Assembly (NCBI GenBank): GCA_013791855.1
Contig: VMTA01000019.1
Location: 124,001 to 188,000 of the forward strand
Direction: 5' to 3'
Source: Sideroxydans sp.
GTDB lineage: Bacteria > Pseudomonadota > Gammaproteobacteria > Burkholderiales > Gallionellaceae
DNA: 64,000 nt
Part shown: positions 17,522-22,513 of the stretch, in pieces
How the letters are laid out: each line of letters begins with the position of its first letter
Numbering within the stretch: the first letter of the stretch is position 1
Made by a program: the position numbers and the translations under genes
Notes under the pieces: model-generated
The model's input: only the letters and a program-made list of their open reading frames with translations
Databases searched by the model: none
Told to the model about the DNA's origin: nothing

Positions 17522-17598
17522 AGGCGCGTAGCTCAGCTGGTTAGAGCACCACCTTGACATGGTGGGGGTCGTTGGTTCGAGTCCAATCGCGCCTACCA
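17522..17598 (+). tRNA. tRNA-Val (anticodon GAC)
   Basis: A 77-base cloverleaf. Acceptor AGGCGCG pairs with CGCGCCT, the D-loop is AGCTGGTTA, the anticodon stem CCACC/GGTGG holds loop TTGACAT, and the T-arm contains GTTCGAGTC. A CCA end is encoded. It reads GUC/GUU valine codons. Confidence 0.95.
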
Positions 17599-17636: not shown

Positions 17637-18191
17637 ATGTTCACATTGAGTCTACATGGAGAAGAAAGTACTCAGGCCCTGCTGCAATCGGGCCGTTCCT
17701 ATTGCCTCATCGTCCGTTCTGAATCTCAACGCGCCGCTTTGCTCAAGAATCTGGGCGAGCAGGCCGGCGTGGTCATCGTGCCGCATAACGGCGGTCTCAT
17801 CAGTAATCTCCGGGTTTGGGAGAACATCATCCTGCCCGTGCAGTATCATGGCATCCAGCTGCCGGGAAAACTTGAAGACAACGTGACTGCCTTGCTAGAT
17901 CAATGCGGTTTGTCGGACGAGACCGTCTTGTCGGCGCTGATGCTCAAGTTGCCCGACCAGCTCACTTTGTACGAGAAGCGCCTGGTAGGTTTTGTAAGGG
18001 CCATGTTGATGGGGCCGGAACTTATCATCTACGACGGTCTGAATGAAGGTTTGTCGCGCAAGGAATTGGTGATGGTGAACAAGTTCGATGCGGTATTCCG
18101 TTTGCACTTCCCGTTCAGGACTTCTGTTCTGGTCAGTTTTGAGGAAGACAGCGAAAAGAGCGATCCGGATCAGTTGCTGATCCATCTGTAA
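17637..18191 (+). CDS. Degenerate ABC ATPase-like subunit of an Mla-like system
   Basis: A 184-residue protein that keeps the outline of an MlaF-type ATPase but has lost its catalytic residues. The Walker A position reads VRSESQRAA (residues 26-34) instead of GxxGxGK[ST]. The Q-loop is PHNGGLISNLRVWENIILP, where MlaF-like proteins have FQ.GALF.SLTVWENV. The LSGGQ signature is replaced by LPDQL (105-109). Walker B is LIIYDGLNEG, with Gly replacing the catalytic Glu. The H-switch His is Phe168. It probably does not hydrolyse ATP and may be a structural or regulatory partner of the MlaE permease. The start at 17637 is 38 bases after tRNA-Val; the in-frame upstream start lies inside the tRNA. It precedes mlaD by five bases. 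Confidence 0.8.
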   Translation: MFTLSLHGEESTQALLQSGRSYCLIVRSESQRAALLKNLGEQAGVVIVPHNGGLISNLRVWENIILPVQYHGIQLPGKLEDNVTALLDQCGLSDETVLSALMLKLPDQLTLYEKRLVGFVRAMLMGPELIIYDGLNEGLSRKELVMVNKFDAVFRLHFPFRTSVLVSFEEDSEKSDPDQLLIHL

Positions 18192-18196
18192 CGACC

Positions 18197-19144
18197 ATGA
18201 AACTGAACAACTACAATCAACGTTTGCTGAATATCGAACAGCGTACAAAGCGCTTTTTGCTGGGTGCGCTCGGGGCGATGTTGTTGGCCTTGCTGCTGAT
18301 TGCCATCAAGCAGGACTACCTGGTGCGCAGCACAGCCATCTACTTCTTTGCGCCCAATGCGCAGGGACTGAATCAGGGGATGGCAGTCAAGTTCATCGGT
18401 TTTAAGGTAGGGAGTGTCAAGGAAGTCAGCATGCAGCCCAATGCGACCGTGCGCGTAAAAGTGTCATTGGACGATGAATATGTGCATCTGATCGGTCTGG
18501 ATGCGAAAGCGCGTCTGATCAAGGAAGCGCTGGTCGGCGAGAGTGTGGTCGAGATCATTCCCGGCTCGCAGCAGGTGCAGCAGGTGACACAGAACAGCGT
18601 GCTCCAGTTCGAACGCGGGCAGGATGCCAGTAGTATCGCCGAGAGTATGGCTGCGCAGCTTCAACCTATCCTGAACGATATCCGCCAGATCACTGCCAGC
18701 ATCAACAATCCGAATGGCGAGATCCAGCAGACGCTGAAGAACCTGAACCAGGTGACAGGTGATCTGCGCGAGACAGTCAAACAATTCACCCAACTTGGGG
18801 TCAGCGGCAATCAGAAGCTGGACAGCGTACATGGCAAGCTGGACAAGGCGCTCGATAGTGTGAATGCCAATCTGGAGGTGATGGACAAGGCGATCCCGCG
18901 TCTGGTCGACAAGGCCGATGCAACGCTGGATAACGTGCAGACCGCCACCACGGACATCAAACGGATGACTGCCGATACGGCCGGAGAGTTGCCGGCATTC
19001 ATCCATAACAGTAACGCTTTGGTGCAGGACAGCCAGGACATGCTGGAAGGCGCGAAGCAATCTTGGCCGTTCAGCGGCTGGTTCCGCAAGCCTGAGGCTC
19101 AAGTGTTGCCGGTGGACGGTTATGTGCCACCAGAGAAACCCTGA
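18197..19144 (+). CDS. MlaD/MCE-family lipid-transport protein
   Basis: Periplasmic, membrane-anchored MCE protein expected to bind phospholipid in an Mla-type pathway. One N-terminal transmembrane helix (FLLGALGAMLLALLLIAI, about residues 20-38) is followed by a single MCE domain (about 45-120) with LNQGMAVKFIGFKVGSVKEV. A long helical, Gln/Asn-rich region with tandem coiled-coil-like repeats (LDSVHGKLDKALDSVNANLEVMD) follows. At 315 residues it is longer than E. coli MlaD (about 180). Its stop overlaps the next start, so translation is coupled to the lipoprotein gene. Confidence 0.88.
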   Translation: MKLNNYNQRLLNIEQRTKRFLLGALGAMLLALLLIAIKQDYLVRSTAIYFFAPNAQGLNQGMAVKFIGFKVGSVKEVSMQPNATVRVKVSLDDEYVHLIGLDAKARLIKEALVGESVVEIIPGSQQVQQVTQNSVLQFERGQDASSIAESMAAQLQPILNDIRQITASINNPNGEIQQTLKNLNQVTGDLRETVKQFTQLGVSGNQKLDSVHGKLDKALDSVNANLEVMDKAIPRLVDKADATLDNVQTATTDIKRMTADTAGELPAFIHNSNALVQDSQDMLEGAKQSWPFSGWFRKPEAQVLPVDGYVPPEKP

Positions 19145-19941
19145 TGATGGACCGGCTGCGACTTTCCTCGGCGATTGTGCTTTCTGGTCTGTTATTTCTG
19201 ACGGCCTGCGGACAGACGGCACCCCTGCGTAACGCAAGGCTGGAACTGGCGGCAGAATATAGCCAGAGTGCGCAGCGTGCGTATGATCGAGGCGACTACC
19301 ATGTAGCGCTAAGGCAATATGAAATGGCCTTGCAGGTGGATGTCGCCGTTGAGAACATCGCTGGTATCGCTATTGATATGTTGAATCTGGCTCGCGTGAA
19401 CCAGATGCTGGGTCGTTGGGAAGTTGCCAATGCGTATCTGGACAAGTTGCTGCAAGACAGTGCGTTGGAATATGGGACGCCATATTTGGCAACCGCTGCG
19501 ACTCAAAAGTCCTTGTTGCTACTGCAACAAGGGGATGTGAAGGGTGCCCGACTCTGGTTGGAAAAGGCATCGGCATGGTGCGTCGCGGAATGCTCGCTCG
19601 CGAGCGTGATCGACAATGCTCGTGCCGCGATCGCATTGCGTGAAAAGGATAGTGATCAGGCTTTGCATTGGGCGGAGCGAGCCGCGTCAGCCAGTCGTGG
19701 CGATTCGCCCCTGGAATATGCCAACGCCCTGCGCTATATGAGCGAAGCTCAGTTGATGCGTGCCGAGTTCGCGACAGCTTCGCGATTGGCTGATGAGGCG
19801 CTGGTGGTGGATAAATCACTGGGATTGCCTGAAAAGATCAAGCAGGACCTGCTGCTGTTGGCCGCTGCATACGTGGGGCTGGGCGACACCGAGCAGGCTA
19901 AGCGATACCGCGAGCGCGCCTCGCGCATCGTTGCAAGGTGA
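19144..19941 (+). CDS. Lipoprotein with TPR-like repeats, Mla-like operon
   Basis: A 265-residue predicted lipoprotein. The signal ends in the lipobox LTAC (Cys near residue 22). The mature part is alpha-helical with TPR-like pairs such as YSQSAQRAYDRGDYHVALRQYEMALQ and AYVGLGDTEQAKRYRERAS. In the intermembrane transport context it could be an outer-membrane-anchored adaptor, comparable in location to other lipoproteins of MCE systems; that is inferred. Two adjacent ATGs at 19144 and 19147 are possible starts. Its end overlaps the next gene by four bases. Confidence 0.75.
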   Translation: MMDRLRLSSAIVLSGLLFLTACGQTAPLRNARLELAAEYSQSAQRAYDRGDYHVALRQYEMALQVDVAVENIAGIAIDMLNLARVNQMLGRWEVANAYLDKLLQDSALEYGTPYLATAATQKSLLLLQQGDVKGARLWLEKASAWCVAECSLASVIDNARAAIALREKDSDQALHWAERAASASRGDSPLEYANALRYMSEAQLMRAEFATASRLADEALVVDKSLGLPEKIKQDLLLLAAAYVGLGDTEQAKRYRERASRIVAR

Positions 19942-21731
19942 GCGGCATGGGCATGCTTGAACGCTTGCAGGATCCGCGATTCAGATGGCTGCTGGGTTTG
20001 GCTATCTGTCTGGTAATCGCCTTGGGTATTTCATATTTTCAAACCGGAGACGGCCTGAGCAGGAGGATACTGGATCGTCAGTTCGATCTTCTGCATCAAC
20101 GATCCGCGCATCCGATACAGAACGATGTGGTCATCGTCGGCATCGACGAGGATAGCTTCAGGAAATTCAAGGAACCCTTCGAGTTGTGGCATCCCCATCT
20201 GGCCAGTTTTCTGCAGGCCATGGAGTCGGCCAAGCCCAGCGTGCTCGGGCTTGATATCGCCTTACCTGAACGATCCTACCAATTCATGCTGCCTCACTAT
20301 GAAGATGGACTGGTTAAGGCGTTGCAAGCGCTCAGCGCACAGACCCCTGTCGTGCTGGCACGCAAGCCGGATGCTGAAGGTGCTTTACGCCCTGTGGATG
20401 GCGCGTTGGCTGCCTCGGTCGCGGATGCCCCGGCTTCGGTCATGCTCTGCCTTGACGGGGATGGTGTGCTCCGACGTTTCGATCTCAATCGTTGCACTGT
20501 GAACGCGCAGGGAACCAGCTTCGCTGAAAAGGTCGCTGCCCGGCTGGGCGTGGCGCATCCGGGAGTCGGCATTGTGGATTTCAGTGCGGGCCAGAAGTTC
20601 GACTACATTCCATTCTCACGCGTGCTGGAATGGCAGGGGCAGGCTGACAAGCAGCGACTAGTTGCCACTTTTTCCGGTAGAACCGTGCTGTTGGGCGTTG
20701 TTTCTGCGCGTGCTGAGAAGGTGCGAGTTCCAGTGCCCATGGCGGTATGGTCACCGATGGATAAGCGTGTGTCGGAAGTGTTGGTGCAGGCGCAGATTTT
20801 GCGTTCAATGACAGGGAAAGGCTTGATCCGCGAGCTGCCGCTGTGGGGCAGTGTAATTCTTGTGCTAGCCGCTGCTTTGCTGTGGTTGGGACGTACAGGC
20901 TGGATCAAGCTGGCGGTATTCGCAGTGACTCCAGTCGCGCTTTGGCTGCTGGCAACCTGGATGTTGGGGGTCGGTATCTATCTGCCTTTGGGGGGCATTC
21001 TGCTTTCCGGTTTGTTCGCATTCATGGCGCGGCTTGGGTATGAATCGGTGATGCAGATACGCGGCCGTGAAGGATTGCGGGAGCTCTTCGATAGTTATGT
21101 CAATCGCGAGGCGTTGAACGGGATCATGAGTGGCAAGATCGATTCACGCACGGATGGGGAGCGTGTGCGGGTGTGCCTGTTGCATGCGCGTATCAAAGAT
21201 TTCAGTCGGCGGGTGCAGGAGTGTGAGCCGCAGGCATCAGTGTCGCTGTTGAATGACTACTTCTCCGAAATGGCTATTGCGGTACATCAGCACAAGGGCA
21301 CGCTCGATAAATTCGTTGGGAGCGAGCTGGGGGCCTTCTTTGGGGCGCCACAAACACTTGAAAGTCCGGAGCGGAATGCGCTCGAGGCGGCACAGGAGAT
21401 GTTGCAGCGGCAGCGCGAAGTGAATGAACGATTGCTGGAGAGCGGAATGCCCGCGATCGAGATCGAGATCGCCTTACATGTGGGGCAGGTGGTGGTCGGG
21501 CATGTCGGATCGTCTGCGCGCAAGGATTACACGGCACTCGGCTCCGAAATCGATGTCGTGAAAGCGCTCGTGGAATTGGCGAAGAGCGCGGGATGTCCTG
21601 TGGTCTGCTCCGCAGAAGTGGCTGAAGTGGTCAGGGTTGCGGGCGGTATCTCGGAAGTTGGCATAAGGCAGGTCGGTGGCGCGGACCTTCATGTCTACGC
21701 ATGGACGCCGCCCTTGCTCGGGGGGCAGTGA
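19938..21731 (+). CDS. CHASE2-domain protein with degenerate class III cyclase domain
   Basis: A 597-residue membrane protein. An N-terminal helix (residues 14-32) precedes a periplasmic CHASE2 sensor (about 40-285), then come three helices (about 297-370) and a cytoplasmic class III nucleotide-cyclase fold (about 385-590). The cyclase motifs look inactivated. The first metal Asp of FADIRGF-type motifs is Arg418 (HARIKDF). The second is Ser462 (KFVGSELGAFF instead of GDxxxA). The usual N...R pair after DYT.LG is Asp539/Ala543. It is probably a signalling pseudoenzyme. GTG at 19938 is used because it overlaps the lipoprotein stop; ATG at 19947 is possible. Its stop overlaps the MlaE start. Confidence 0.78.
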   Translation: MSGMGMLERLQDPRFRWLLGLAICLVIALGISYFQTGDGLSRRILDRQFDLLHQRSAHPIQNDVVIVGIDEDSFRKFKEPFELWHPHLASFLQAMESAKPSVLGLDIALPERSYQFMLPHYEDGLVKALQALSAQTPVVLARKPDAEGALRPVDGALAASVADAPASVMLCLDGDGVLRRFDLNRCTVNAQGTSFAEKVAARLGVAHPGVGIVDFSAGQKFDYIPFSRVLEWQGQADKQRLVATFSGRTVLLGVVSARAEKVRVPVPMAVWSPMDKRVSEVLVQAQILRSMTGKGLIRELPLWGSVILVLAAALLWLGRTGWIKLAVFAVTPVALWLLATWMLGVGIYLPLGGILLSGLFAFMARLGYESVMQIRGREGLRELFDSYVNREALNGIMSGKIDSRTDGERVRVCLLHARIKDFSRRVQECEPQASVSLLNDYFSEMAIAVHQHKGTLDKFVGSELGAFFGAPQTLESPERNALEAAQEMLQRQREVNERLLESGMPAIEIEIALHVGQVVVGHVGSSARKDYTALGSEIDVVKALVELAKSAGCPVVCSAEVAEVVRVAGGISEVGIRQVGGADLHVYAWTPPLLGGQ

Positions 21732-22513
21732 TGGGCGGCTTCTGGAGGCGCGTGCTGGTCAGGCTGCAGATGCGGCAAGTCCGGCAGACGATATTCGGTT
21801 CGCTTGCCTTGCTGTGGTATGCGTTCAATAACCTTCATGTCTTGCGCCTTTCGCCGGTGAACGCCGTGTTCCAGCGCCAACTGTTCTTTACCGGTGTCGA
21901 GGCGCTCGGCATTGTGGCGATCTTTGGCTTGCTGAGCGGCGCACTCGTCATCACGCAGATCACCTCCCTCATCGGCGGGGATAGCACGCTGGCAGTGAAG
22001 ATATTGATCTGGACCATCGTGCGCGAGATCGGCCCCTTGTTCGCCGCCATCATCATCGTCGCGCGTAGCAGTGCGGCCATCGCTTCCGAACTTGCCTTGA
22101 TGAAGACGCGCGGCGAGATGAAGAGTCTGGAGCGGATGGGCATCTCCCCGCAAGATTATCTGCTGGTACCCCGTATCGTGGGTGTGACGCTGGCCGTGCT
22201 GGCCTTGACCATTTACTTCCAGCTCGTCGCCATCGGTGGCGGATTGGCGATCAGTGCTTTGTTCCAGAACGTATCCTGGCTGGACCAGGTCGGCCGCTTC
22301 CTGCAGACGGTGAAGTTGAGCGAGTTTGCGGTGGTGGCTTTCAAAGGTTGTCTGTTCGGATTGGCCATCTCCAGCATCTCTTGCTACAACGGCATGCAGG
22401 CACAGCCTTCTGTGACCGAGGTGCCCAAGGTCGCCATCAAGGCAGTTCTGCAGAGTCTGCTGTTCGTGTTTGCGCTGGATGCGCTGATCGCCTACCTGAA
22501 CATGAGCTGGTGA
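21731..22513 (+). CDS. MlaE-family lipid ABC transporter permease
   Basis: Inner-membrane permease of the MlaE/YrbE family, 260 residues with about five or six membrane segments. It carries the family-typical TIVREIGPLFAAIIIVARSSAAIASELALMKTRGEM, the glutamate/arginine-rich coupling loop region, and a C-terminal stretch GLAISSISCYNGMQAQ. Start ATG 21731 overlaps the preceding stop (TGATG). It must normally pair with an active MlaF-type ATPase; the only ATPase relative in this operon is degenerate, so either an ATPase from elsewhere is used or the mechanism differs. Confidence 0.88.
   Translation: MGGFWRRVLVRLQMRQVRQTIFGSLALLWYAFNNLHVLRLSPVNAVFQRQLFFTGVEALGIVAIFGLLSGALVITQITSLIGGDSTLAVKILIWTIVREIGPLFAAIIIVARSSAAIASELALMKTRGEMKSLERMGISPQDYLLVPRIVGVTLAVLALTIYFQLVAIGGGLAISALFQNVSWLDQVGRFLQTVKLSEFAVVAFKGCLFGLAISSISCYNGMQAQPSVTEVPKVAIKAVLQSLLFVFALDALIAYLNMSW

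Follow-up and report, generated by a model that had tools for sequence, protein, structure and literature searches.

The window analysed here is a 64,000-nucleotide stretch of contig VMTA01000019.1 from Sideroxydans sp., a relative of iron oxidisers. Within it, five open reading frames run in tandem on the + strand (17637–22513) and encode an ATP-binding cassette (ABC) protein that has lost its ATPase motifs (the pseudo-ATPase), a long protein with a single MCE domain, a TPR lipoprotein, a CHASE2 cyclase-like protein and an MlaE-family permease. As a preliminary description of this DNA had stated, the genes overlap or abut throughout, with a gap of 5 bases at the first junction followed by overlaps of 1, 4 and 31 bases. 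The genes, and two segments within them, are as follows:

17637..18191, + strand: pseudo-ATPase gene, 184 aa, ATG at 17637
17790..17849, + strand: pseudo-ATPase segment GGLISNLRVWENIILPVQYH, directly after the former Q-loop, the most conserved stretch of the family
18197..19144, + strand: long single-MCE protein, 315 aa; Pfam MlaD
19144..19941, + strand: TPR lipoprotein, 265 aa; Pfam TPR_12
19938..21731, + strand: CHASE2 and class III cyclase-like protein, 597 aa, GTG start; Pfam CHASE2 and Guanylate_cyc
21701..22513, + strand: MlaE-family permease, 270 aa; Pfam MlaE
22076..22138, + strand: MlaE coupling-helix region ASELALMKTRGEMKSLERMGI, located by alignment and showing its own consensus

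Pfam assigns the permease to MlaE (PF02405, 164.9 bits, cut-off 22.5), the MCE protein to MlaD (54.3 bits, cut-off 25.1), the TPR lipoprotein to TPR_12 (47.1 bits, cut-off 30.1) and the CHASE2 protein to both CHASE2 (81.7 bits, cut-off 26.3) and Guanylate_cyc (40.0 bits, cut-off 21.9), in agreement with the long MCE protein and the TPR-like lipoprotein described previously. The permease falls under the cut-offs of TIGR00056 (117.2 vs 212.2) and NF033619 (95.7 vs 315), and the MCE protein under that of TIGR00996 (72.2 vs 140.5). Neither MlaC nor MlaB was found among the five genes in the Pfam scan, again as described, and no protein of the operon matched a STAS domain.

Fold and conservation of the pseudo-ATPase

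The pseudo-ATPase scores only 16.9 bits against Pfam ABC_tran, for which the cut-off is 25; profile comparison and a structure model give it an MlaF-like ABC nucleotide-binding-domain fold. Sequence comparison found no Walker A, ABC signature, catalytic Glu or H-loop His in its 184 residues, which bears out the pseudo-ATPase predicted in the preliminary description, and the domain is strongly predicted to be catalytically dead. Among the pseudo-ATPases of 80 loci from named genomes (retained out of 106 confirmed), a pattern scan found Walker A and LSGGQ-like patterns in none, and a loose Walker B pattern in one (L154). In the alignment of this motif-found set the Walker A Gly is kept in one of 73 family members; 72 of the 74 listed pseudo-ATPases were aligned, with L135 and L186 left out. 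Annotation and surveys may have overlooked the family because the window protein lies under the Pfam ABC cut-off and 26 of the 73 members give no ABC match at E 0.001.

The conserved stretch of the pseudo-ATPase is an NLxxxEN segment. Because the motif [ILV][SNA]NL[RK][VT]WEN was used to collect the named-genome set, it is circular that N57, L58, W61, E62 and N63 are invariant there (73/73). Two further sets were collected without the motif, one of 46 proteins by similarity to the window pseudo-ATPase or its profile (window included) and one of 31 via MlaE alone, which omits relatives with a P-loop. In these sets N57, E62 and N63 are kept in 46/46 and 31/31, L58 in 46/46 and 28/31, and W61 in 45/46 and 22/31. 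A His stands at the aligned H-loop column in 2 of the 31 MlaE-found proteins, in a gappy part of the alignment. The ratio of nonsynonymous to synonymous substitution rates (dN/dS) of the pseudo-ATPase is 0.034–0.136 in 10 of 11 comparisons within the genus, the remaining one being saturated, and ranges over 0.03–0.19 for the pseudo-ATPase, MCE protein and MlaE where dS is unsaturated. The pseudo-ATPase is under purifying selection, with one segment conserved, and a recent pseudogene is ruled out by dN/dS together with the deep conservation.

A four-gene core and a dispensable CHASE2 gene

The conserved unit consists of four genes, for the MlaE permease, the pseudo-ATPase, the long single-MCE protein and the TPR lipoprotein. 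Of the five-gene system proposed in the preliminary description this core stands, while the CHASE2 gene, found in 27 of the 80 named loci, is an accessory. The gene order does not arise by chance: MlaE and MCE genes lie beside the pseudo-ATPase in 26 of 26 stretches around pseudo-ATPase matches and a TPR gene in 24, the TPR protein being found by profile on the same contigs in the remaining two (L194, L199). An early pseudo-ATPase search fetched the stronger matches only. In the bacterial order of the window, 29 of 399 genomes from five families matched the pseudo-ATPase profile at E≤1e-20; the arrangement MlaE–pseudo-ATPase–MCE–TPR was found at all 19 further strong matches, and a weaker one (L127, 1.8e-19) was an ordinary ABC gene without system neighbours. 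Across 398 genomes of the phylum only G000 and G013 passed 1e-20, in a match list filled by ordinary ABC ATPases. At the named loci an MCE gene accompanies the pseudo-ATPase in 80/80, TPR relatives in 76/80 and MlaE in 69/80; some of the missing genes lie past contig ends, and several Geobacter-type stretches are simply without MlaE in view.

The named carriers comprise Gallionellaceae, Sulfuricella, Muproteobacteria, Nitrospirota, Geobacter and relatives, Syntrophorhabdales, one genome labelled Nitrospinota and one Verrucomicrobiaceae, and those of the Chitinibacteraceae are Jeongeupia, Chitinolyticbacter, Chitiniphilus, Silvimonas and Chitinilyticum. At the level of families and phyla, the core recurs in Gallionellaceae, Sulfuricellaceae, Chitinibacteraceae and two further families of that order, as well as in Nitrospirota, Thermodesulfobacteriota and a small number of other groups. 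Some record titles are uncertain: the 'Nitrospinota' MlaE (L164) is nearly the same as that of Nitrospirota L167, and the label Bordetella parapertussis on the metagenome-assembled genome (MAG) L149 is doubtful. Among named genomes, MAGs labelled Sideroxydans come closest, with 95% identity in the pseudo-ATPase. In relatives outside the window's genus, MlaE is usually the first gene. The neighbourhood is conserved beyond this strain, contrary to the strain-limited occurrence that the preliminary description had named as speaking against its proposal, and recurrence across families and phyla rules out a strain-specific oddity. A system MlaE is present at E≤1e-60 in 46 of 130 Gallionellaceae genomes and in 25 of 34 of the window's genus, where a contig end accounts for at least one miss (G012).

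Gallionellaceae, Geobacteraceae and Nitrospirota all include genomes with a CHASE2 gene next to the system, and 21 of the 27 at named loci stand in the window's gene order. The gene is reduced to a 54-residue remnant in L035 (= L131) and is absent from L038 (= L133); it is dispensable and not part of the core. CHASE2, through which the preliminary description had the system sense the periplasm, is ruled out as a core sensor, the gene not being seen in 53 of the 80 named loci. In the cyclase domain of the window the two metal Asp residues, whose role in metal binding we assume, are replaced by Arg and Ser, in line with the pseudo-cyclase predicted earlier. Both are intact in L149 and L150, two betaproteobacterial MAGs that share the gene order of the window (L149 being truncated further along), in Geobacter L169, L171 and L182, and in the Nitrospirota-type neighbours L152, L155 and L162. 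Of the 17 genus rows that cover the sites, 12 retain them, and the loss is limited to the subclade of the window (window, L128, L129, L130, L132). The dead cyclase half has a dN/dS of 0.102–0.172 in three pairs of this subclade and, since this indicates constraint, may be kept for a non-catalytic role. Within the one neighbourhood type of L128–L150, CHASE2 genes are seen with the metal Asp intact, partly changed, lost yet constrained, as a remnant, or not at all. To judge from these comparisons the two degenerate proteins have different histories, ATPase death being old and cyclase loss confined to the window's subclade.

The MCE protein begins with a helix, transmembrane by position, followed by an MCE barrel at residues ~45–140 and then ~145 mostly helical residues. 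In its monomer structure model the MCE part is confident, the helical part has a predicted local distance difference test score (pLDDT) of ~36–56, and the mean pLDDT is 61.2. The C-terminus (residues ~288–309) carries a conserved motif of its own, KxxWPxxxxxxxPExxxLxxDSY, in an alignment of 40 of the 71 MCE proteins listed. This motif may be where the TPR lipoprotein docks. The lipoprotein itself has a lipobox-like LTAC followed by Gly. A loose lipobox pattern is matched in 62 of 76 TPR relatives, although some matches are not the true site, and the next residue is Gly in 41 and Asp in none. In Escherichia coli the residue after the lipobox Cys governs outer-membrane destination, and by this rule the frequent Gly and absent Asp favour the outer membrane, where the TPR lipoprotein is probably located. 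Its Pfam list up to E 1 contained no row for the PqiC family.

The MlaE clade and the decay of its ATPase

In a tree of MlaE proteins, from which rows shorter than 220 residues or more than 0.85 alike to one already included were left out, 68 system MlaE are separated from 22 ATPase-paired MlaE by one branch with support 100/100. The coupling region differs: a Glu-Gln or Glu-Glu pair is present in 14/14 ATPase-paired MlaE shown, whereas the first Glu is replaced by Gly, Asn, Arg or Ser in 13/13 pseudo-system MlaE shown. E130, L131, M134 and E139 of this region are invariant in 28 sequences. As a control, 30 MlaE loci were taken from 12 genomes: an ATPase gene was adjacent at 20 of 22 other MlaE genes, with Walker A in 20/20, and Walker A was absent from all seven pseudo-system loci at which the gene could be seen.

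Since the first set came from a dead-ATPase motif, the search was redone with an MlaE profile that is blind to the ATPase. In Nitrospirota 48 of 245 genomes matched at E≤1e-60, and 30 of the 49 matches were taken, the other 19 being outside the counts. Of these 30 loci, the best 27 comprise 26 beside a protein without Walker A and one orphan MlaE (L262), while the three lowest-scoring (L272–L274) have a Walker A. In Thermodesulfobacteriota 27 of 247 genomes matched; nine of the 27 loci were without Walker A by pattern, 12 had one, and six had no ATPase in view (none is in view at L294 and L299). Walker A was called with a plain regular expression, and the 'partial' class of L281 and L285–L288 was assigned by eye.

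The Walker A-positive relatives are already deviant, with LSLG-, ISxG-, LSLE- or LNxGE-like signatures, and among L289–L301 the nine that are long enough to judge lack an H-loop His at the aligned position. The catalytic Glu is kept in L289–L293 and L301, is Asp in L295, L296 and L298, and is Asp or Ser in L332–L334 (the L272–L274 group), of which L333 carries a His displaced by two positions. In L281 the P-loop is retained, with Lys in place of the catalytic Glu, L285–L288 have a partial P-loop, and the others have lost it. The deeper branches keep parts of the ATPase site and form a ladder of decay; as Walker A-positive and partly decayed relatives exist, our claim does not extend to all members being dead. 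When 73 hand-picked MlaE rows were rooted on 13 canonical MlaE, the Walker A-positive groups branched first, the order between the two being weak (88/36). The partial and dead forms make one clade (100/99), and the dead forms with four orphan MlaE make a clade within the same tree (100/95). ATPase death is one change in the sampled tree without orphan rows and two once five orphan MlaE rows are counted; parts of the trees are uncertain owing to long branches (including L230, L205 and L235). The proposed order of loss would be H-loop and signature, then catalytic Glu, then P-loop.

Among the 13 Walker A-positive or partial loci with wider flanks, all but L344 have a TPR gene after the MCE gene (12/13). 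Each of the orphan MlaE L262, L278, L280 and L282 has a pseudo-ATPase without Walker A elsewhere in its genome (4/4), and the L284 MlaE lies ~3.6 kb from one with a partial P-loop (L348). In some Geobacteraceae-type genomes (L345–L347, L353–L355) a CHASE2 gene lies upstream of MlaE, with the pseudo-ATPase elsewhere in the genome; the gene downstream of MlaE presumably encodes a fructose-bisphosphatase.

Proposed lipid transport: powered, gated or passive

The preliminary description had raised the question of a full mlaFEDCB in the same genome. A complete canonical operon is present elsewhere (L033, its MlaC and MlaB named from gene order and size), so the pseudo-operon is a genuine second system and not a stand-in for a missing mla operon. 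This 47-contig draft contains two MCE proteins and two MlaE, one of each in the canonical operon and one in the pseudo-operon, and because only two MCE proteins were found no Pqi or Let protein is seen in it.

On balance we lean towards the reading that the system is a trans-envelope MCE lipid bridge, derived from a transporter of MlaE, MlaF, long MlaD and lipoprotein, in which the ATPase has become a non-catalytic scaffold and lipid flows unpowered, mainly from inner to outer membrane. The dead domain would dock on MlaE via its conserved segment and hold it nucleotide-free and open to the periplasm, and an MCE hexamer with its helical needle would carry phospholipid to the outer-membrane TPR lipoprotein. 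According to a review, MlaE without ATP is open toward the MlaD channel and MlaD passes lipid to MlaC, likewise without ATP, a handover that ATP hydrolysis suppresses (PMC10212509). By analogy, a non-hydrolysing subunit would leave the MlaE port open, and net flow would run from the lipid-making membrane, against the retrograde transport that canonical Mla drives with ATP in that cell. Where CHASE2 proteins occur, they might tune the bridge to the envelope state, in the window's subclade without cyclic nucleotide production. Such a dead-motor bridge suggests that lipids can be moved between two membranes without that motor.

Several points weigh against this reading. The docking role of the conserved segment would follow from its position within ABC domains, and both cargo (phospholipid) and direction are argued from analogy. 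The helical needle is predicted with low confidence as a monomer, and many dS values exceed 1. The system is patchy and, being absent from some well-covered genomes of the genus (G014, G019), is not essential to the lineage. MlaF homologues in 39 of 40 genomes tested make borrowing possible, and a review favours retrograde transport for canonical Mla (PMC10212509).

Between the borrowed ATPase and the passive mode that the preliminary description had offered, the passive mode is favoured. It is unlikely, in our view, that canonical MlaF powers the system MlaE while the pseudo-ATPase serves as an assembly factor or as a place-holder swapped for MlaF. MlaF homologues occur at E≤1e-40 in all but one of those 40 genomes, all with the system, the canonical operon of the window genome is complete and one Glu of the MlaE coupling region is kept. 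There is also a precedent in the mycobacterial Mce systems, which likewise have long single-MCE proteins, with six MCE genes per operon and an active ATPase (MceG) that is encoded elsewhere and serves several of them. However, the coupling segment is unlike that of ATPase-paired MlaE, the pseudo-ATPase retains its own conserved segment, and four genomes with a separate MlaE still carry a Walker A-less pseudo-ATPase elsewhere. Since the pseudo-protein has neither Walker A nor signature, neither composite site of a mixed dimer with MlaF would be complete, and an ATP-hydrolysing dimer of this kind is ruled out. The exception among the 40 genomes, G854 of the Verrucomicrobiaceae (L205), has a pseudo-ATPase system without an MlaF homologue at E≤1e-40 and is a possible test case against motor borrowing.

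Equally improbable is a gated or otherwise driven bridge, in which the pseudo-ATPase would be a regulatory subunit that opens and closes MlaE on a partner or ligand, the proposed triggers being the CHASE2 branch, envelope stress or nucleotide bound without hydrolysis. The recurrence of CHASE2 genes in three lineages, the constraint on the dead cyclase half and the deeper branches with a P-loop but without H-loop His, which fit a binding-only stage, would be in keeping with it; against this, most named loci (53/80) have no CHASE2 gene in the stretch examined, two close relatives have lost the complete gene and a ligand site was not identified. It is very improbable that the operon is a decaying copy of an ABC lipid transporter that no longer has a function: the lost ATPase motifs and cyclase residues, the loss of the complete CHASE2 gene in two relatives and the presence of MlaE in only about a third of Gallionellaceae genomes (46/130) would fit such decay, but this reading is already contradicted by purifying selection on the pseudo-ATPase, MCE protein and MlaE and by deep conservation, with the same dead state and conserved segment across phyla and the unit intact across families.

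The passive bridge may be extended, more tentatively and with less conviction, to a multi-phylum class of ABC-derived bridges in which ATP power was lost stepwise and a passive phospholipid channel from inner to outer membrane, held open by a pseudo-nucleotide-binding domain, would oppose the ATP-driven retrograde Mla of the cell and replace Pqi/Let in genomes without them. Canonical MlaFEDCB (E. coli; L033) has MlaE, an MCE domain and the MlaF fold in common with the window system; it differs in its intact MlaF motifs, short MlaD (154 aa in L033) and the presence of MlaC and MlaB, and its MlaE forms a separate clade. PqiABC and LetAB are likewise MCE bridges with an inner-membrane protein without ATPase domain (PMC12436622). 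Their inner-membrane protein is PqiA or LetA and they have several MCE domains per protein, whereas the window has MlaE and one MCE stretch. We know of no ABC-derived subunit in either.

The Mpc system of Brucella abortus (MpcEFDA), whose four proteins co-purify, also combines an MlaE-type permease, an MlaF-type protein, a long helical MCE protein (331 aa, against 315 in the window) and an outer-membrane lipoprotein, without MlaC (PMC12436622). MpcF, however, is the ABC ATPase of a well-conserved transporter and its window counterpart looks dead, MpcE carries a STAS domain for which the window MlaE has no match, and MpcA is PqiC-like where the window lipoprotein is of TPR type (PMC12436622). 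In one Sideroxydans MAG (L132:44-3250) an operon in Mpc order (MlaE, Walker A-bearing ATPase, long MCE protein, lipoprotein) lies directly upstream of the pseudo-operon, so that live-looking and dead versions are adjacent. The lipoprotein of that operon is, we assume, PqiC-like.

The long-MlaD MlaEFD bridge proposed for Veillonella parvula and many diderms likewise pairs MlaE with an elongated, periplasm-spanning MCE protein; MlaF belongs to its described core, and a C-terminal beta-barrel is inferred in 103 sequences (PMC10665443). The model of the window MCE protein has no such barrel, while MlaE together with a long single-MCE protein with a helical C-terminus is found in the window system (helices predicted, needle of low confidence). 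The survey of Grasekamp et al. also took MlaDE clusters owing to uncertain MlaF annotation (PMC10665443), and may hold pseudo-ATPase loci unrecognised.

The system is made of known parts in a new, stable state. A description of an MCE/MlaE system with a dead ATPase was not found in the open-access literature, subscription journals and preprints being outside the scope. The ATP need and lipid direction of MCE bridges are still argued (PMC10212509). The present loci form a natural MlaE–MCE set in which the motor ranges from near-intact through half-decayed to dead, usually in a genome that also encodes an MlaF homologue, and the question of energy and direction becomes a comparison among natural variants. 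To our knowledge dead ABC domains kept as scaffolds seem rare, and for this reason we judge a conserved family of them to be a find in itself.

The operon is flanked by dnaB, named from the Pfam scan, and tRNA-Val, and by a gene that we take to be thrS. The program-listed open reading frame of the pseudo-ATPase starts further upstream, at 17559, within the tRNA. The tRNA-Val lies at 17522–17598, with its 3' end 38 bases upstream of the pseudo-ATPase start codon, and the pseudo-operon may be on the same transcript.

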